Below, in pieces: positions 32,467 to 64,000 of a DNA stretch of 64,000 bases. The stretch is from Pedosphaera sp. (GTDB lineage: Bacteria > Verrucomicrobiota > Verrucomicrobiia > Limisphaerales > SXQI01). The notes under the pieces are model-generated. The model did no database searches and was not told the origin of the DNA. It saw nothing but the letters and a program-made list of their open reading frames with translations. The stretch is taken from positions 62,001 through 126,000 of the forward strand of contig JANYDC010000107.1 in the NCBI GenBank assembly GCA_025359965.1. Reading direction: 5' to 3'. A program made the translations under genes and the position numbers. Positions within the stretch are counted from its first letter, which is position 1; the number at the start of each line of letters is the position of its first letter.

Positions 32467-34671
32467 TCAATACTTTGGCTTGATGTCGAGAGCGGCACGA
32501 TCGGTCGATTTGGCTGATTTGCCATCTTTGGACCCTTTAGCCCCACCTTTCCCGCCGCCAGATGTCGGATCATTGTCATCCTGCTTGGAGTAATAATCGT
32601 AATAATAACCGCTGTAATAGTAGTAGTACGAATCCTGAGAGATGTTGATGTTGTTCAGCACCACCCCCAGCAGATTGCCCCCGACTTTTTCGACCATCTG
32701 TTTGGCACGGATGGTCATGGCTTGCGGGTATTTGCGGTATTGGATGACCAGAATGGAGATATCCACTTCGCTGGCCAAAACGGAGGCGTCGCTCACGCCC
32801 ATGATGGGAGGTGAATCAAAAAACACGTAGTCGTAGCGCTCTTTGGCTTTGACCATAAAATCGCGCATTTGCACAGAATTCAGAACGCCCAATGAACTTG
32901 AGGGCAGCTTGCCGCTGGGCAGGAAATCCAGCAGAGGCACCGGCGTGCGCTGCACCACTTCCTCGATGGTATTCTGTTTCATCAGGAAGTTGGTGAGCCC
33001 CATGGAGTTGGAGACATTCAAAATCTTGTGCAAGCTTGGGCGTCGCAAGTCGGAGTCGACCAGAAGAACTCGCGAACCATTTTGAGCGAAAATCGTGGCC
33101 AGATTGAAGATGGTGGTGGATTTACCCTCACCTGCTCCACCGCTAACCACAGTGATAGTGCTGGCCTTGTCCGTTTTGCGACTAAACAGGATATTGGTGC
33201 GTAGCACGCGGTACGCTTCGGCATGTGGGCTGTCGACACCCTCTTCCAAAAGCGACCCAACGTTTTGGGGGATAACTCCCAGCACGGGGGATTGCAAGGC
33301 GCGCTCGACGTCATCAATGGTCTTAACACTAGTGTCGAGATACTCGATGAAGAATGCCAAACCGAAACCCATTACCAAACCAACAACCACGCCAAGGATA
33401 ATATTAAGAGTAACGTTGGGGCGCACCGGTTTACTGATCGGCAGCGCGGGATCATGAATTTCCACCATGCCCGTTCTGGGAATCTTTGAATCGATCGTTT
33501 CCTGCATGATACGGGCAGACATTTGCTCGTTCATCCGTTGCTTATTTTCCAAATCACGCTTCGCGGCGAAGTAGGGGCGGTACTTCTCCATCATGTCCGT
33601 ATCCTTTTTCTTGGCCGCCTCAAGGTGGGCCGCCAGCTCGTCCACCACAGCTTTGGCACTCTTAACACGAACTTCCAAGCCACTAAGCACCCCATCAACC
33701 CGATCTTCGATCTGTCGGTCCACGGTTTTAATCATGGCCATAAGCTGCTTCACCTGAGGGTGTTCTTCGCCGTATTCCTTAAGCGCTTGAGAAAGCATCT
33801 GCTCGGCCTTGCCCAAGTCCTGGGTATAACGAGTCAAAGCCTCATCCGGCCATGCGACGGGAATGGCACGGCGTTGGTCAACTCGGTTCATTTCCTTCAG
33901 GCCCTTATAAAGTGTGCTTAGCTGCGCATAAGTTTGATCTGCCTGGATACGATCACGCTCAATAGCCCGCACGGTCTCCGGCTCGAGGGTGGTTTGTGAC
34001 AAGCTGTCTCCCATATCCGAGATTTGATACTGCTTGCGAAGCTTATCTACTTCAACCTGAGCCAATAGCACCACGTTTGATTGCTTCGAGTACTCCGCTT
34101 TAAATGCTTCGATGCCAGATTGGGAAAGCTTGCGGCTCTTTTCCAAGCGTTGACGTTGGTAAACCTCAGCCACTTTATTGGCGATGGCAGCGGCTTCCTT
34201 GGGATCCTCGCTAAAAGCCCTGATTTCAATAAGGCTGGTATTGCGGGTTTCCTGGGTATCGATGACCTTTTTGAGAATGTCGATGGTCTCCTGCGTGGTC
34301 AGCCGTACAGAAGTGGCGTAAGTTTTGGACCAAATATCGGCCAACCCTAGCTCAACAACCACATTGCTCAGCACAGACTGGGCCTTGATTTTCTCAAACT
34401 CAGTACGGATGAAGAATGGATCGTAGTGTGATGCCGTCTGCCCGCCTTGCATCAAAAGCGCGATATCGCCCATGTCCTGCCCGACTTCGATACGAGCAGT
34501 GCTCATATAAGTCTTCTTCAGAACCAAAGTCATCACTGTGGTGGTGATGACAACCAGCAAAAACACGGCTAAAATAACTGTTTTGCGGATCCGGATGATC
34601 CGCCAATAATCCAAAAAATGCAGTTTCGACTCAGGCGACTGACCGACAGGGGAAGTACTCGTAACATCCAT
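32467..34671 (-). CDS. Polysaccharide co-polymerase / BY-type tyrosine kinase (Wzc-like)
   Basis: Wzz region, GNVR region, Walker A 'SGGAGEGKSTTIFNLA', 'VLLVDSDLRRPSLH', C-terminal tyrosine cluster 'YYYYYSGYYYDYY'. Confidence 0.93.
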   Translation of the reverse strand: MDVTSTSPVGQSPESKLHFLDYWRIIRIRKTVILAVFLLVVITTTVMTLVLKKTYMSTARIEVGQDMGDIALLMQGGQTASHYDPFFIRTEFEKIKAQSVLSNVVVELGLADIWSKTYATSVRLTTQETIDILKKVIDTQETRNTSLIEIRAFSEDPKEAAAIANKVAEVYQRQRLEKSRKLSQSGIEAFKAEYSKQSNVVLLAQVEVDKLRKQYQISDMGDSLSQTTLEPETVRAIERDRIQADQTYAQLSTLYKGLKEMNRVDQRRAIPVAWPDEALTRYTQDLGKAEQMLSQALKEYGEEHPQVKQLMAMIKTVDRQIEDRVDGVLSGLEVRVKSAKAVVDELAAHLEAAKKKDTDMMEKYRPYFAAKRDLENKQRMNEQMSARIMQETIDSKIPRTGMVEIHDPALPISKPVRPNVTLNIILGVVVGLVMGFGLAFFIEYLDTSVKTIDDVERALQSPVLGVIPQNVGSLLEEGVDSPHAEAYRVLRTNILFSRKTDKASTITVVSGGAGEGKSTTIFNLATIFAQNGSRVLLVDSDLRRPSLHKILNVSNSMGLTNFLMKQNTIEEVVQRTPVPLLDFLPSGKLPSSSLGVLNSVQMRDFMVKAKERYDYVFFDSPPIMGVSDASVLASEVDISILVIQYRKYPQAMTIRAKQMVEKVGGNLLGVVLNNINISQDSYYYYYSGYYYDYYSKQDDNDPTSGGGKGGAKGSKDGKSAKSTDRAALDIKPKY

Positions 34672-34709
34672 AAAGCAAAAGGAGGCTGAGAGTTATGATC
34701 TCAGCCTCC
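34672..34709 (-). terminator. Hairpin followed by T-rich tract on minus strand, between outer-membrane protein gene and Wzc-like gene
   Basis: Perfect 11-bp stem GGAGGCTGAGA/TCTCAGCCTCC, 7-nt loop; minus-strand 3' flank TTTTGCTTT. Confidence 0.7.
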
Positions 34710-53585: not shown

Positions 53586-53620
53586 GAGGCACGGACTAAA
53601 AATCCGTGCCTCCTTTTTTT
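53586..53620 (+). terminator. Rho-independent terminator
   Basis: Perfect 10-bp stem GAGGCACGGA/TCCGTGCCTC, 7-nt loop, T run; follows the isomerase gene. Confidence 0.85.
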
Positions 53621-53655
53621 GGACACGGTGGATGTGAAAGTTTTCCTTGGCATAT

Positions 53656-53679
53656 ACATATCGGTTTTTTACGATATGT
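53656..53679 (+). promoter_or_regulatory. Inverted repeat ACATATCG-N8-CGATATGT, candidate ArsR operator
   Basis: Perfect 8-bp inverted repeat ending 13 nt upstream of the arsR-like start codon. Confidence 0.7.
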
Positions 53680-53692
53680 TCAGTCATTGGAT

Positions 53693-54088
53693 ATGAAAAC
53701 CCTATTGCGCACAGCCAAGGTTCTGAGCGATCCCACCCGCGTGCGGATTCTTGTCTTGTTACGTGGGCGGGAGTTGTGTGTTTGCGAACTGATGGATGTG
53801 CTTGGAACGAGCCAGTCAACGCTGAGCACCCATCTCCAAGTGATTCGCCAGGCGGATTTGGTGTCGGTTCGACGCCAAGGCAAATGGCTATACTACGCGT
53901 TGGAGCCTGAGACAAAGACCCTGCTGGAGTTCATAGCGGACAGGTTTGAGCTGGGAAAAAACACCGACCCAGCTCTGCGAAGAGATGCGGCCAAGCTTGA
54001 AAAGCGGTTAAGCCTGCGGGATGGAGGTTTGTGTTGTGTGGGTGTGGAATCCTGTTCGCCAAAAACAAAAAAGGCGACCCGTGAATAA
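53693..54088 (+). CDS. arsR: ArsR family transcriptional regulator
   Basis: 'LSDPTRVRILVLLRGRELCVCELMDVLGTSQSTLSTHLQVIRQADLVSVRRQGKWLYYAL' including ELCVCEL metal site. Confidence 0.93.
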   Translation: MKTLLRTAKVLSDPTRVRILVLLRGRELCVCELMDVLGTSQSTLSTHLQVIRQADLVSVRRQGKWLYYALEPETKTLLEFIADRFELGKNTDPALRRDAAKLEKRLSLRDGGLCCVGVESCSPKTKKATRE

Positions 54089-54740
54089 ATTACTGGCCGA
54101 AGCCTTGGGTACCTTTGGGATCGTTTTCGCGGGCACGGGGGCCATTGTGGTGGACCAACTGACCCATCAGGCCATTGGTCATGCCGGGATCGCGCTGACG
54201 TTCGGGCTGATTGTTGCAGCCATGATTTATGCGTTTGGCGATATCAGCGGGGCGCACCTCAATCCTGCAGTCACAATGGCTTTTGCCTTGGCAGGGCGGT
54301 TTGAGTGGCAGTATGTGGTTCGCTTCATCCTCGCCCAGCTGGCAGGTGCGCTCGCCGGCAGTTTGCTTCTGCGCTTTCTTTTCCCATCTGCTCTCACTTT
54401 GGGAGGAACGCTTCCACTGGGGCCTGCCTACCAATCGTTCGTATTGGAGCTGGTGCTGACCTTTTTGCTCATGTTGGTGATCTTGCGGGTTTCAACAGGC
54501 GCACGCGAGAAAGGGATTACGGCAGGGCTGGCCATCGGCGCGGTGGTGGCCTTGGAAGCCATGTTTGCGGGGCCGATTTGTGGTGCCTCGATGAACCCGG
54601 CGCGTTCGTTGGCACCGGCAGCTGTGTGCGGACAGTGGGCGTCACTGTGGATTTATCTGATCGCACCCACCCTGGGAGCGGCCTTGGCGGCACCAGTCAG
54701 CGCAGCCTTACATTCCGGACCCACTCCTCACAAATTGTGA
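54081..54740 (+). CDS. aqpS: MIP family channel (aquaglyceroporin, AqpS-like)
   Basis: 'GAHLNPAVTMAFAL' and 'GASMNPARSLAPA' NPA motifs, six TM segments; GTG start overlaps arsR. Confidence 0.88.
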   Translation: MNKLLAEALGTFGIVFAGTGAIVVDQLTHQAIGHAGIALTFGLIVAAMIYAFGDISGAHLNPAVTMAFALAGRFEWQYVVRFILAQLAGALAGSLLLRFLFPSALTLGGTLPLGPAYQSFVLELVLTFLLMLVILRVSTGAREKGITAGLAIGAVVALEAMFAGPICGASMNPARSLAPAAVCGQWASLWIYLIAPTLGAALAAPVSAALHSGPTPHKL

Positions 54741-54765
54741 AGGTGCCGACACAAATCATTTACTT

Positions 54766-55229
54766 ATGAAACTCAATCAGTTCCAAGCAGGGCTGGCAGA
54801 GGCTCCCGATGCGGAAATGAAGCGGATCCTGCCGGGTGGCACGCAGGTGCAGCCTCATGCGCATGTCACGGAGGTGGCACGCATCAACAAAGGGTTTGCT
54901 GATTCTGGGGGAAAATTTCGCGAGGAATCGCTCTGGCGCTTGCACACTTGGGTGGCGGAGGACTTTGAACACCGGCCAACTGCGGGAAAGCTGCGACCAT
55001 CAATAGCGATGCGACGGCGACAATCGGCGCAGGTGACTTTGATATTGAGGCGGAGCACGAGGAGGGGGTGATTAGTCAGCACCCGATCGTTACGACCGAA
55101 ATCCAAGGACGCAAATTAGCTGTGCAACTCACCTCGCGCCACACCGATTGCCTGGCCCGTGACTTGTGTTGCCCGCCCCAGCCTGTGAAGAAAATCCTTT
55201 CACCTCAAACCCTGGCCCATTTTTCATGA
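54766..55229 (+). pseudogene. DUF6428-like arsenic-operon protein with a -1 frameshift near 54985-54990
   Basis: First frame 'HVTEVARINKGFADSGGKFREESLWRLHTWVAEDFEHRPTAGK', second frame 'AATINSDATATIGAGDFDIEAEHEEGVISQHPIVTTEIQGRKLAVQLTSRHTDCLARDLCCPPQP', joined if one A is added to GGGAAAG. Confidence 0.75.
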
Positions 55230-55681
55230 AACCCCTTTCCGACTCACCCTTGGTTCTGGTGCTTTGCACTGGCAATTCATGTCGCAGCCACATCGCCGAA
55301 GGGATTTTGCGCGCGGCAGCCAAAGGCACTTTCCGCGTGGCCAGTGCAGGGAGCAAACCGGCAGGATACGTGCATCCCCTCTCGATCAAGGCGCTGGCAG
55401 AGATCGGGATCGATATCTCGCAGCATCACTCCAAGCACATGAATGAGTTTCTCACGCAGCCCGTCGAGACAGTGATCACGGTTTGCGGCAATGCGGACCA
55501 GGCGTGCCCTGTGTTTCCCGGCCAGCTCAACAGGCATCACTGGCCGTTTGAGGACCCGGCCCATGCTTCAGGCAACGCGGAGGAAAAGATGGCCGTTTTC
55601 CGGCGAGTGCGGGATGAAATCCGCAAGGTGTTTGAGGCCTACGCCGATGGACGTCAAGATGTGACGTCACAACGTTCCTGA
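55226..55681 (+). CDS. arsC: Arsenate reductase, LMW-PTP (thioredoxin-type) family
   Basis: 'LVLCTGNSCRSHIAEGIL' P-loop, 'VITVCGNADQACPVFPG' Cys pair, 'HWPFEDPA'. Confidence 0.93.
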   Translation: MKPLSDSPLVLVLCTGNSCRSHIAEGILRAAAKGTFRVASAGSKPAGYVHPLSIKALAEIGIDISQHHSKHMNEFLTQPVETVITVCGNADQACPVFPGQLNRHHWPFEDPAHASGNAEEKMAVFRRVRDEIRKVFEAYADGRQDVTSQRS

Positions 55682-55761: not shown

Positions 55762-57702
55762 TCAACCCAAGTTCATGGTGAGCAGGAACTCAATGTTGCT
55801 GCGCGTCTTTTTCAATTTGCCGAGCAGCAGTTCCATGGCTTCGACAGGCGGCACACCGGTAAGCGCTCGGCGAAGCATGACTACTTTGCCATATTCCTGC
55901 GGATGGTAGAGCAGCTCTTCTTTGCGCGTGCCGGAAAGCTCGACATTGATGGAAGGGAAAATGCGGCGATCCACCAGATGGCGATCGAGATGGACTTCCA
56001 TGTTGCCGGTTCCCTTGAACTCTTCGAAAATAACCTCGTCCATACGCGATCCGGTATCGACCAGAGCGGTGGCGATGATGGTTAGTGAGCCACCCTCTTC
56101 GATGTTGCGAGCCGCTCCGAAAAACCGCTTAGGTTTGTGGAGCGCGTTGGCATCGACACCGCCGGAAAGAATTTTTCCGGAGTGGGGCTGGACCGTGTTG
56201 TAGGCTCGGGCCAAACGAGTGATTGAATCGAGCAGGATGACTACATCCTTCTTGTGCTCAACCATGCGGCGGGCTTTTTCAATAACCATCTCGGCCACTT
56301 GAACGTGACGCTCAGGCGGCTCGTCAAAGGTCGAACTAATGACCTCGGCCGGTTTGCAGGAGCGTTCCATGTCCGTGACTTCCTCAGGACGCTCGTCGAT
56401 CAGGAGGATGAAGAGGTAGCTGTCCGGGCTGTTCTTGAGGATGGCGTTCGCCAGCTTTTGCATGAGCACCGTTTTTCCGGTGCGGGGAGGAGCCACGATC
56501 AAACCGCGAGTGCCCTTGCCAATTGGGCAGACCAAATCCAAAACGCGGGTGGAGAGTTCGTCCGCAGTGGTTTCCAGAATAAAACGACGATCCGGAAAAA
56601 GAGGCGTAAGGTTATCGAAATGGGTTTTGTCCTTCGCTTTCTCTGGGTCATCGGTACCCACTTTTTCGACCTTTAAGAGCGCGTAAAAACGTTCTTTTTC
56701 CTTCGGCGGACGGATTTGCCCCTCGATCAAATCACCTGTTTGAAGGTCAAAACGGCGAATCTGAGAAGGCGAAACATAAATATCCTCAGGGCAGGGCAGA
56801 TAATTGAAGGCCTGAGAACGGAGGAATCCGAAACCCTCGGGCATGATCTCCAAGACCCCCTCGGTATAAAGCATGCCTCGGCGTTCCGCGTTCTTCTTCA
56901 GAATCTCGTAAATCACCTCCGGCTTTTTCATGGTGCCGAAGTTCTCGATGGCCATCTCTTTGGCCATCGCGTTGACTTCGACCATCGACATATTCTGCAG
57001 CTCGGCCAAATTGATCTTCGGGGCGTTGGGATCAATGTTGGGGATGTAATCCTCGTCGTGCTCAATGATCACGCGAGATTTGGGCTGATGCTTTACGTGG
57101 TGCGGCTGAGGTTTCTTCGCGTGCTGTTGGTGCGGGCGGTGAGTTGGTTGAGGCCGTTGCGGCTGCTGATGCCGGGGCTTGTTATTGGGCGCTCCGCCCC
57201 GGGCGTTCGGTTGACGCGGGCGAAGCGGTTGGTTCCCGCCACCACCATGCGAGCCATCGGGACCAGGGCTGCGATCCAGAACGGGGTCAGGCGGCAGCGG
57301 AGCACTGGAAATTTGAGGCGCGGATTCGACTTCTGCGCCAGGCTCACTCTCAACAGGCTCAGAATAAACAGCGACTGGCTCTGGTGCCGGCGGGCGGGCT
57401 TGCTCAGGAACTGCCGGGGGCTGGGCGGCTTCGGCGACGACGGGCTGGGGCTGCACACGAGGTGCGGCAGTTCTCACAGATGCACGTGAAGGTGCTCGGG
57501 GCGCTGGAGTCGGCTTGGTAACGGGCTCAAACATCGGCTCGTGGACAGGAGGAGCCATTGGAACGGCAGCGGCCGGAGCAGTAGGCAAATCGCCGCCGGT
57601 CAAAGGCAGAACAGCCTCATCACTCGGCTCAGTGGAGACTTTCTTGGCACGGGCTCGGGGTTTGGCGGGAGCAGCCTTCTTCACGGGGGTTGGTTTCGAC
57701 AT
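55762..57702 (-). CDS. rho: Transcription termination factor Rho with long N-terminal extension
   Basis: '[25 protein letters not shown]', '[13 protein letters not shown]', '[30 protein letters not shown]'. Confidence 0.95.
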
Positions 57703-57856: not shown

Positions 57857-60010
57857 TTAATAAGGCAGGGGGAATTGCGCAGTCAGAGCATGCACACGTT
57901 CTCGCACCTGATGTGCTGCGTCAAGGTTTTTAATATCGAGCAGCACCTCGCTGATCATGTCTGCGATGGCCGCCATCTCCGCTTCCTTCATGCCGCGAGT
58001 GGTTACGGCAGGTGTGCCGACGCGCACTCCGCTTCCTTGGAACGGTGAACGAGTCTCGAACGGAATGGTGTTTTTGTTGACGGTAATGCCCGCCTCATCG
58101 AGAACAAGTTGGCAATCTTTGCCACTCAGGCCGCGAGCCCCCACATCAACCAGCATCAGGTGGTTGTCTGTGCCTCCGCTGACAATGCGGAAACCGTTGC
58201 GTTTCAACCCCTCACACAACGCCTTGGCATTGCGCACCAATTGATTTTGATATCCCTTAAAGGACGGCTGCATCGCTTCCAGAAAACAAACAGCCTTGGC
58301 TGCAATCACGTGCATCAAAGGACCGCCTTGGATACCAGGGAAAGTCTGGGAATCAATCTCTTTGGCGTACTGCGCTTTGCAAAGGACCAAGCCACCTCGG
58401 GGTCCGCGCAGCGTCTTGTGGGTAGTGGTCGTGACGAAATCGGCATGTCCGATGGGGCTTGGATGTTCGCCCGCCACCACCAAACCCGCGATGTGTGCGA
58501 TATCGGCCAGCAGTAAAGCCCCGTTTTCTCGTGCGATTTCGCCCATGCGAGCAAAATCAATCACGCGGGAATAGGCACTGGCCCCCACGGTGATCATTTT
58601 GGGCTTGTGCTCTTTGGCCATGCTTGCGAGCTGGTCGTAATCAATCAACTCGTTTTCCTTACCCACTCCGTAATGGACAATCTCAAAAAATTTGCCAGAA
58701 AAATTGGCTTTATTGCCATGGGTAAGATGTCCGCCATGGCTGAGATCCATGGTAAGCATTTTGTCGCCCGGCTTCAGCATCGAAAAATAGACCGCCATGT
58801 TGGCGCCGCTGCCCGAGTGCGGCTGGACGTTTGCATGCTCGGCTCCAAAGAGCTTTTTGGCTCGGTCGATGGCCAACTGCTCCACTCCATCAACGTGTTC
58901 GCATCCGCCATACCACCGCTTTGCGGGGTAACCTTCGGCATATTTATTGGTCAGTACGGAGCCTTGGGCCTCCATCACAGCGGGGCTGGTGAAGTTTTCG
59001 CTGGCGATCAGCTCAATATTTTCCTGCTGACGCTGGCGTTCAAGCTCAACCAGATTGAAAATTTCGGGATCGACAGAGCGAAGTCGAAGGGTGGGTGAAA
59101 CAAGTCGGTTTTCCATTTTGCGAACTCGGCGGTCATGACGGCCACCTTGAAAGTGTGATTGTAGAAATATTTCAATGAAACGGACGGCTTGATCGGGAGA
59201 CGTCATCTGGCTGCCAAAACAAATGACATTTGCGTCATTGTGCTCCCGTGCGAGAGCCGCCATCGCCTCTGTAACCACCAAGGCCGCACGAATGCCGGGA
59301 ACTTTATTGGCTGCAATGCTCATACCAACCCCGGTTGAGCACACCAGCACACCTAAGTCGCTTCGACCGGAAACCACGGCTTCCGAAACCGCCTGAGCGT
59401 AATCGGGATAATCTGTGGATTCTGAGGAATTGGTCCCCAAGTCAACAAACGATATTTTCTGGGTCTGCAAATAGCCTTTGATGGCTTCTTTGAGTTGGAA
59501 TCCCGCGTGATCCGACCCAATGGTCAGGACTGCGTGCTTGGCGGACTGAGAGGTCGTTTGATCGATGAATTTCAACATGGTGACGATGCCTTGCTCAATT
59601 TGATCGCGGCAATTTCGGTAAACATCCAGAGACCCTCCGATTGGGTCCGAGATATCTTTCTCGTAGATGTCTAGTGTTTCGTCAAATTCACGTAAAAGGA
59701 AAGTTTTTTCCGTGGCCTGAGGGAAAAGCAATTGAATGGCATCCACATGTCCGTGGGTCATGCCGAAGATGAAATCGGCTTGCTTGACCAGTTCCCGCGT
59801 CAGCATGCGGCTGCGCTGACGTGAGATATCTATGTCCAACTCCCGCAACGCTTTAACAGCGTGAGTGCTCGGGGCCTGGCCATCGATGGCTCCCACTCCC
59901 GCTGAAATCACCTTAAAATTGCCCCGACCTTCCATTGCATGACGAAACAAGCCCTCCGCCATGGGGCTTCGACACACATTACCGGTACAAACGAACAAAA
60001 TTGTCTTCAT
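57857..60010 (-). CDS. Triple fusion: LMW protein phosphatase - ribose-5-phosphate isomerase B - serine hydroxymethyltransferase
   Basis: '[22 protein letters not shown]...[18 protein letters not shown]' (LMW-PTP), '[18 protein letters not shown]...[22 protein letters not shown]' (RpiB), '[33 protein letters not shown]...[14 protein letters not shown]' (GlyA) in one frame. Confidence 0.92.
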
Positions 60011-61849: not shown

Positions 61850-64000
61850 ATGAACACTTCAGCACCGCAATCGGAGCCCATGGGCTTTTCTCGGAGGTCG
61901 TCCCTATTATCCGATCGCAGGGGGCTATTCAGCTTTGGAAAACAGACGGCGACCTTGGCATTAGGTCTGTGGGCGGCAATGTGCGCCCTATTGTGGCTGG
62001 CTATTCCTGAGGCTCGTGCTGCGACGTTGCCGAATAATTTATGGACGAATCCGACCTTTGAACTCGGCACTGACCTGGACCAGACGGATGGCCTATTGGA
62101 GAACTGGAATCGCGGCGGCAACACTCCAGCCATCTGCCAGGTGATCACGAATAATTCGGTGAGTTCGGGGCACAGTTTAGCGGTGATGGATTTGGACGAG
62201 GGTGATTTGTACGGCGAATGGTACTCGGATGTGGTGCTCGGTTCGCAGGCTTCGGCAGGCGATACGCTCGATATCCAATGGTATGAAATGTACAACGTCG
62301 CCGGGGCTGAGATGCGTTTGACGGTGTTATTCTTCAACGCCAGCGATGGTGTGGTGGGTGAAATGCACTTCGTCACGAGTGGAACAGCCAGTGAAGGCTG
62401 GGTAAGCACGATTGAGGATTCGACCTTTACGAAGCGCAACGAAGTTCTGTCGGTGCCGCTTGGGGCAGTGAAAATGCGGTGTTCTTTGGTGTCGGGCGGT
62501 TCAGGCACGCTTACGGGCATGATGGTGATCGACGATCTTTCGGTGGCGCGCGCGGCTGTGCCCAATCTTTTGTTCGGCAATTTCTGGGTCAACCCATCCT
62601 TCGAACTGGGTACGGATCTGGAGCAAACGAGCGGCACAGTGTCCAACTGGAATCGTGGCGGCAATACTCCGTCAATCTGTCAGGTGATCACGGACAATTA
62701 CACCAGCTCAAGCCATGCGCTGGCACTCATTGACAACAATGCCGGGGATTTCTACGGTGAATGGTATTCCGATGTGCTTCTGAGCGGCAACGCCAGTCCC
62801 GGGGATACTTTGAACCTGCAATGGTTCGAGATGTACAACCTCAGCGGCACTGAAATGCGTCTGACAGTGCTGTTTTTCAATGCTACCGATGGTGTGGTTG
62901 GAGAAACGCATTTCGTGACTGCCGGCACCACCAATGACGGATGGAAGGGCACTATTCAGAGTTCGACATTCACCAAGCGCAACACATCTGTATCGGTGCC
63001 CGTGGGTGCGGTAAAGATACGCTGTTCCTTAGTATCGGGCGGACCGGGCACGCTTACGGGAGTGTTCATTATTGATGATTTATCAGTGGCACGGGTGGTT
63101 CCGCTGGTGTCGGGAAATTTCTGGGCGAATTCGACTTTCGAGACTGGCGCCGAGCTGGACAAAACGAACGGCACACCGGCCAACTGGAATCGGGGTGGCA
63201 GTGATGCTTCCATCGATCAGGTCACCACGAACGCTTTCACAAGTTCGAGTCATGCTTTGGCTTTGGTGGACCCCAGCGCGACAGGTTACGGGGAGTGGTA
63301 TTCTGATGGCCTATTGAGCAGCAATGCGACCGCCGGTGTCTTGCTGGATGTTAAATGGTCTGAGCAGTACGGCATCACCAATGGCGAGATGCGCGTGACG
63401 GTGGGGTTCTTTACGGCAGGAGGCAATTTCATTTCGGAGACGCACTTCGTCGCGTCGGGTAATAGCGCGGGTTGGGTGGGCACAATGGCGGGCTCTCCTT
63501 TTGTGAAGAGGCAGCAAGAAGTTACGGTTCCGGTGGGTGCGGGTAAGATCCGGGTGGCTTTAGCATCGGCAGGACCGGTCGAAACGGTGGGATCAATGGT
63601 GATCGACGATCTGACGGTGGCGGTCCATCCCACGACTGTTCTGACAGGGAATTTTTTCCCGAACCCAACTTTTGAGGAAGGTGACCAATTGGAAAATCCC
63701 ACAGGAGGGACGCCCGCTGGCATTTGGGCACGTGGCGGTGGTGACGGCTCAATTGACCAGATCAGCACGGCCAATTCCCTCAGCTCCTCACACTCGCTCG
63801 CCCTAGTGGATAATAATGAAAACGGATATGGCGAATGGTATGGATTCCTTGTGTTGCCCGGCGTGGTGGCTGGAGATTCGATTGATATCCAATGGTATCA
63901 ATTGTACAGCGTAACCAACGGCAACATGCGTTTGACCTTTGCTTTCACGGACGGCAACAACGCACAATTGGAGGCTCACGACTTCAACGTGTCGGGCCAA
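61850..64000 (+). CDS. Secreted repeat protein, at least four ~180-aa units; truncated by window end
   Basis: Manual translation from ATG 61850 stays open for 717 codons to the edge; units begin 'LWTNPTFELGTDLDQTDG', 'FWVNPSFELGTDLEQTSG', 'FWANSTFETGAELDKTNG', 'FFPNPTFEEGDQLENPTG'. Confidence 0.85.
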   Translation, partial: MNTSAPQSEPMGFSRRSSLLSDRRGLFSFGKQTATLALGLWAAMCALLWLAIPEARAATLPNNLWTNPTFELGTDLDQTDGLLENWNRGGNTPAICQVITNNSVSSGHSLAVMDLDEGDLYGEWYSDVVLGSQASAGDTLDIQWYEMYNVAGAEMRLTVLFFNASDGVVGEMHFVTSGTASEGWVSTIEDSTFTKRNEVLSVPLGAVKMRCSLVSGGSGTLTGMMVIDDLSVARAAVPNLLFGNFWVNPSFELGTDLEQTSGTVSNWNRGGNTPSICQVITDNYTSSSHALALIDNNAGDFYGEWYSDVLLSGNASPGDTLNLQWFEMYNLSGTEMRLTVLFFNATDGVVGETHFVTAGTTNDGWKGTIQSSTFTKRNTSVSVPVGAVKIRCSLVSGGPGTLTGVFIIDDLSVARVVPLVSGNFWANSTFETGAELDKTNGTPANWNRGGSDASIDQVTTNAFTSSSHALALVDPSATGYGEWYSDGLLSSNATAGVLLDVKWSEQYGITNGEMRVTVGFFTAGGNFISETHFVASGNSAGWVGTMAGSPFVKRQQEVTVPVGAGKIRVALASAGPVETVGSMVIDDLTVAVHPTTVLTGNFFPNPTFEEGDQLENPTGGTPAGIWARGGGDGSIDQISTANSLSSSHSLALVDNNENGYGEWYGFLVLPGVVAGDSIDIQWYQLYSVTNGNMRLTFAFTDGNNAQLEAHDFNVSGQ
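62039..64000 (+). repeat. Tandem protein-domain repeats (~534-543 nt spacing), coding
   Basis: Equivalent codons at 62042, 62585, 63122, 63656 (spacings 543, 537, 534 nt); recurring 'GEWYSD', 'NWNRGG', 'SSHALAL', 'FTKRN..VSVPVGA'. Confidence 0.85.

Follow-up and report, generated by a model that had tools for sequence, protein, structure and literature searches.

Introduction

The combination of an LMW phosphatase, an RpiB and an SHMT in one protein was described for Minf_1669 of Methylacidiphilum infernorum V4, and in the passage concerned a tie between the serine and the pentose phosphate pathways was proposed from it (Hou et al. 2008, PMC2474590). The architecture has been known since then, at least as a remark, thus the novelty that a first-pass annotation of the locus studied here had implied does not hold. 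A literature search on the LMW-RpiB-SHMT fusion beyond that paper revealed no further study, survey or assay. Among the solved structures, PDB 4egs, which bears the name 'Ribose 5-phosphate isomerase RpiB', is an LMW-PTP-like chain that matches the LMW domain of the present protein at 2e-23; the name of the deposit hints that LMW and RpiB may be fused in some other bacterium too, and a literature search on the 4egs protein yielded no paper.

In Bacillota the same three enzymes are encoded in the same order in the cluster ywlE-rpiB(ywlF)-ywlG-glyA(-upp). Arginine phosphorylation, the field of the YwlE and PtpB arginine phosphatases, is best known in Gram-positive bacteria. The residue at the PX5 position of the P-loop bears on specificity: according to the passages on Thr and Ile in PMC8001253, Thr favours pArg and Ile favours pTyr, and a Thr-to-Ile exchange lowers the pArg activity of YwlE and raises its pTyr activity.

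The sequence analysed here, referred to as the window, is a stretch of 64,000 nt of Pedosphaera sp. GCA_025359965.1 (contig JANYDC010000107.1, positions 62,001-126,000 of the forward strand). New in this work are the presumed intermediate states of the fusion, with at least 7-11 fusion or fission changes, the co-occurrence of YwlE-like phosphatases with McsB, and the distribution of the PX5 residue.

Results

The fusion gene and its surroundings

The source genome (G000) is a 5.14 Mb draft of 162 contigs, approx. 92% complete, and the window lies on its contig C110. As the first-pass annotation had stated, one uninterrupted frame of 717 residues carries three complete enzyme signatures; the reading frame and the Pfam and NCBIfam searches agree on this (Table 1). 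The domain search that had been proposed returned LMWPc, LacAB_rpiB and SHMT within this frame, all with scores far above the curated cut-offs and with concordant NCBIfam results: the RpiB part reached 166.6 bits with TIGR01120 (equivalog cut-off 138.65) and the SHMT part 631.7 bits with NF000586 (cut-off 335). The LMW domain has the CX5R(S/T) signature and contains the P-loop CTGNVCRSP, in which Val replaces the Thr of YwlE as noted before, and the general-acid motif DPIGGS. In the AlphaFold model (mean pLDDT 79.7) the chain folds in three parts and a linker is disordered, with low confidence around residues 153-158. With a pTM of 0.55 the model hardly informs on the arrangement of the domains, one reason being the homodimers that RpiB and SHMT are likely to form.

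Table 1. Features of the window discussed in the text. Positions are those of the window; aa numbers refer to the fusion protein.
Feature	Position	Strand	Basis
LMW phosphatase - RpiB - SHMT fusion gene, 717 aa	57857..60010	-	single ORF, Pfam + NCBIfam
LMW phosphatase domain, aa 4-143, most likely YwlE-type	59582..60001	-	Pfam PF01451 LMWPc, E 3.8e-32
P-loop CTGNVCRS, aa 8-15	59966..59989	-	sequence
Val12, the PX5 position (Thr in YwlE), GTG codon	59975..59977	-	sequence
LMW-RpiB linker, aa 144-162	59525..59581	-	comparable stretch 13-48 aa across the family
RpiB domain, aa 163-299	59114..59524	-	PF02502 LacAB_rpiB, E 1.2e-54
Short RpiB-SHMT linker, aa 300-310	59081..59113	-	alignment of fusions
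SHMT domain, aa 311-686; homology runs to the C-terminus	57953..59080	-	PF00464, E 2.7e-165
Rho (transcription terminator) gene, outside the fusion	55762..57702	-	ORF; name given by eye from the sequence
Further LMW-fold protein, similar to thioredoxin-type arsenate reductases (ArsC)	55166..55681	+	TIGR02691, E 5e-39, below cut-off
Wzc-like BY-kinase frame (stop to stop), Tyr-rich C-terminal tail	32470..34692	-	PF02706 match + sequence

The Rho-like gene lies 154 bp downstream of the fusion in the same orientation, and of the members of the order that were sampled most likewise have a co-oriented rho behind the fusion; the Pedosphaera copy has a long Pro/Ala-rich N-terminal part. Elsewhere in the window, at 61850-64000, a frame runs off the window that contains several repeat units, each approx. 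190 aa long, with the pattern N(P/S)(T/S)FE.G..L...NWNRGG.

Active sites and probable metabolic role of the fusion protein

The residues generally taken to be catalytic in LMW phosphatases, RpiB and SHMT were compared in 100 full or nearly full fusions, which had been collected from class and phylum surveys and from fetched sequences. Cys8, Cys13, Arg14, Ser15, Asp122, Pro123 and Tyr131 of the phosphatase and Asp167, His168, Cys224, His257, Asn258, Arg291 and Arg295 of RpiB were invariant, and RpiB position 226 was either Thr or Ser. The PLP lysine of SHMT, Lys532, was kept in all 98 rows reaching it, and the other SHMT residues checked were also unchanged, gaps being confined to two partial rows that end early. 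Since every active-site residue checked is kept, the idea that one of the domains is decayed or has only a structural function was rejected.

Searches of the source genome, given its completeness, found neither a second SHMT nor a second RpiB. RpiA was found in 0/58 genomes of the order by a search which was positive in E. coli and other controls; about 20 other members of the order possess a second, separate RpiB. Since the Pedosphaera genome appears to have a sole SHMT, a sole RpiB and no RpiA, it is probably the fusion that carries out both reactions as the housekeeping enzyme. RpiB leads to ribose-5-phosphate and SHMT to glycine and one-carbon units, all of which are used in purine synthesis.

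Distribution and origin of the fusion

A survey of the kind that the first-pass annotation had suggested was carried out on 58 genomes of the same order by an RpiB family profile search, after which the sequences were read. The RpiB matches lay in open frames of approx. 720-1050 aa in nearly all genomes, and the fusion was present in 56 of the 58. Three of these copies end at contig ends: those in G004 and G028 stop just after the start of SHMT, and in G040 only LMW-RpiB is visible before the contig ends. The phosphatase of G036 is a separate, overlapping gene, and the frame of G014 is broken by a stop. The three-domain form spans about 50 families of the order and, according to the class and phylum surveys, is met again in further families of the phylum.

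The first-pass annotation had seen in the fusion a collapsed ancestral neighbourhood, and this view gains from the comparison of gene orders: besides the separate Bacillota genes in the order of the fusion domains, intermediate states exist inside the phylum. Three separate abutting genes for LMW phosphatase, RpiB and SHMT were found in one genome (G144, loci L279 and L305). In 37 genomes of the phylum an unfused LMW gene immediately precedes a gene for joined RpiB and SHMT, and about 100 have the full fusion. These states presumably form an intermediate series. On a quick FastTree tree of the RpiB and SHMT sequences, which does not tell gains from losses of the fusion, the fused or unfused state changed at least 11 times, 7 of the changes being forced by well-supported branches.

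Other arrangements were also seen. At two loci (L119, 2812-4615; L121, 3964-5803) the LMW phosphatase is joined straight to SHMT with no RpiB between, in frames of 601 and 613 aa, respectively; a separate RpiB is present in the genome of the former (G469), and none was found in that of the latter (G470). At six further loci (L109, L123, L140, L230, L266 and L271) the LMW phosphatase lies inside frames of 360-378 aa adjoining rpiB, where it is perhaps joined to another N-terminal domain.

The recurrence of fusion or fission (a minimum of 11 changes, 7 of them forced), the presence of separate and fused forms in related genomes, and the few lineages in which the middle domain is missing would all be expected if the stop codons between three housekeeping genes of an operon had been lost by chance and the joining had not been selected against, with no regulatory meaning and with a phosphatase acting on unrelated substrates. 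This is a possible course of events, which we would not favour: retention of the three-domain form in 56/58 genomes and about 50 families, with every active site kept, suggests that selection maintains the joined state, or at any rate co-expression.

Kinship of the phosphatase and the McsB system

Among solved structures, the LMW domain was nearest to YwlE (1zgg/4kk3) at 9e-28, followed by Wzb at 5e-15, and other LMW-PTPs were weaker. An LMWPc search of the source genome gave no match besides the fusion and the ArsC-like gene. The latter belongs to an apparent arsenic cluster (window 53606-55681) with an ArsR-like regulator and an aquaporin-like channel; these were recognized as ORFs, ArsC alone having a family match.

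Adjacent McsA-, McsB- and ClpC-like genes were found on another contig of the genome (C141, locus L093, 1494-5665, minus strand). McsB passed the NCBIfam cut-off for 'protein arginine kinase' and was closest to solved protein-arginine kinases (1.5e-90), while McsA matched its own model below the cut-off, and the ClpC-like label follows from size, place in the operon and Clp-family matches, among which there was no ClpC model. This cluster suggests that protein-arginine phosphorylation may occur outside the Gram-positive bacteria. The McsB family PF00217, a search with which can miss a true McsB since its control was silent even in B. subtilis, was detected in 58/58 genomes of the order, whatever the PX5 residue, and in 275/289 genomes of the phylum, in some of them weakly.

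In order to compare the two partners, McsB was scored as strong at E<1e-40 and YwlE-like phosphatase at E<1e-28, any YwlE-like protein of the genome being counted and not the fused one alone. Both were strong in 209 of the 289 genomes and both weak or absent in 60, with 6 + 14 discordant cases. This is a concordance of 269/289 with a Fisher p of 4e-41, which is not to be taken literally because the cut-offs were chosen after the values had been seen and the genomes are related. Concordant changes also occurred inside single families (f57, including one genus, f96, f105 and f108). The 60 genomes with both weak or absent comprise, among others, some nine species belonging to a single genus (g68).

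On the evidence of kinship and co-occurrence, the N-terminal domain is most likely a YwlE-type phosphatase and probably one component of a protein-arginine phosphorylation system. Of the features by which a YwlE-type enzyme was recognized, nearest kinship to YwlE and the presence of McsB in the same genome were found and Thr at PX5 was not; because of Val12 the domain is called YwlE-like and is not filed as an arginine phosphatase.

The PX5 residue

The 100 fusions had Ile in 52 cases, Val in 26, Thr in 18, Leu in 2 and Ala and Ser in one each at PX5, i.e. Ile or Val in 78. Both pArg and pTyr are possible substrates of the fused phosphatase. The first-pass annotation had tied Val and Ile at this position to tyrosine phosphatase activity; for Ile this agrees with the passages of PMC8001253, which cover Thr and Ile, and Val lies outside them.

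It had also suggested that the specificity may be for pTyr, with the Wzc-like tyrosine kinase of the same window as a possible partner. The kinase is present, approx. 23 kb from the fusion, and its partnership with the phosphatase is possible but unsupported. In an extended form of this reading the fused enzyme would be a protein-tyrosine phosphatase reversing the BY-kinase, the lineage having shifted from arginine to tyrosine chemistry. The Val of the Pedosphaera protein, the reported effect of Ile (PMC8001253), the Tyr-rich tail of the kinase together with the failure of a search of the source genome to find a separate Wzb-like gene, and the Val at PX5 in both G367 and G381, where an LMW gene is kept and McsB was not detected, are all in line with it. 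So is the rarity of Thr in fused proteins (18/100, against 31/45 separate LMW genes, outgroups included; Fisher p 7e-9). However, strong as the raw bias is, it does not hold independently of descent: 7 pairs gave a median sign-test p of 0.5, so that a link between fusion and loss of Thr is only tentative. Moreover, Thr and Val coexist within one genus in proteins approx. 80% identical, three congeners of the Pedosphaera source genome keep Thr, the nearest relatives by sequence are YwlE proteins (1e-27 against 5e-15 for Wzb), the genome has the McsA-McsB-ClpC operon, and McsB accompanies every PX5 residue throughout the order. A switch to tyrosine thus seems doubtful to us, and a YwlE-type enzyme serving McsB is preferred.

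Integrity of the gene and of its product

The gene could give rise to separate enzymes through internal starts or proteolysis, and the fusion would then be only apparent at the protein level. The Pedosphaera copy does have a Met at the RpiB-SHMT junction, and in approx. 65% of the alignment rows a Met stands somewhere near each junction. Across the family, however, the junction reads K-M/L/F/I/V-E, on which ground a conserved internal start for SHMT was rejected, and the linkers vary in length and sequence. Since the junction Met is not conserved, an internal start that the protein needs is unlikely, and separate products are improbable as a whole.

An assembly error or chance joining in the source genome, for which its draft state in 162 contigs could be cited, is rejected with near certainty, since about 100 genomes assembled independently of one another share this frame and a published complete genome has the fusion; a one-off join is excluded by the 56/58 genomes of the order, and the absence from all close relatives that would have spoken against the fusion is not what was found.

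Discussion

The best explanation of these results, to which we would assign a probability of roughly 60%, is a single trifunctional enzyme that would derive from an old YwlE-RpiB-GlyA operon by fusion of neighbouring genes in Verrucomicrobiota. Judged from the domains, the intact active sites and the sole copies, each domain is probably active in the reaction typical of its family, so that ribose-5-phosphate from RpiB and glycine and methylene-tetrahydrofolate from SHMT would be provided as purine precursors by one chain. The fusion would act as a hard-wired operon with fixed stoichiometry. Its N-terminal YwlE-type phosphatase most likely serves the protein-arginine kinase McsB, and Val at PX5 may broaden or shift its specificity in Pedosphaera sp. 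The phosphatase may be linked in function to the purine-precursor enzymes.

A further-reaching idea, which must be regarded as speculative and rather unlikely, is that a phosphatase of the McsB system was wired onto the sole ribose-5-phosphate isomerase and the sole SHMT and drifted at PX5 to other substrates after the fusion, so that dephosphorylation and the supply of nucleotide precursors would be united on one regulated particle. Why ywlE should stand next to genes of pentose-phosphate and one-carbon metabolism in many bacteria is puzzling, the more so where a single chain holds all three enzymes in about 50 families of an order. The natural set of separate and fused enzymes with Thr, Ile, Val, Ala, Ser and Leu at PX5 offers a ready test of the pArg/pTyr rule, and it bears also on the question whether arginine phosphorylation operates in Verrucomicrobiota.

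Comparison with known systems

Minf_1669, likened here from its published description, has the same three domains in one polypeptide as the Pedosphaera fusion. It belongs to a different lineage, that of a methanotroph, and the passage concerned mentions it as a remark and does not state the domain order (PMC2474590). The 4egs protein differs in that no SHMT part is known for it. The Bacillota cluster of Priestia megaterium has an overall identity of approx. 53% over 98% of the fusion query; in contrast with the fusion, the Bacillota genes are separate, ywlG (TIGR01440) sits between rpiB and glyA, and the phosphatase has Thr at PX5. The YwlE/PtpB arginine phosphatases, the closest solved relatives of the N-terminal domain, share with it the motif DP(I/F)GGS, whereas the fusion has Val instead of Thr at PX5 and is joined to two metabolic enzymes. 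A sister state with the same gene and domain order is seen in those RpiB-SHMT proteins of the phylum that are preceded by an LMW gene of its own; it differs from the fusion in that the phosphatase is unjoined and has mostly Thr at PX5.
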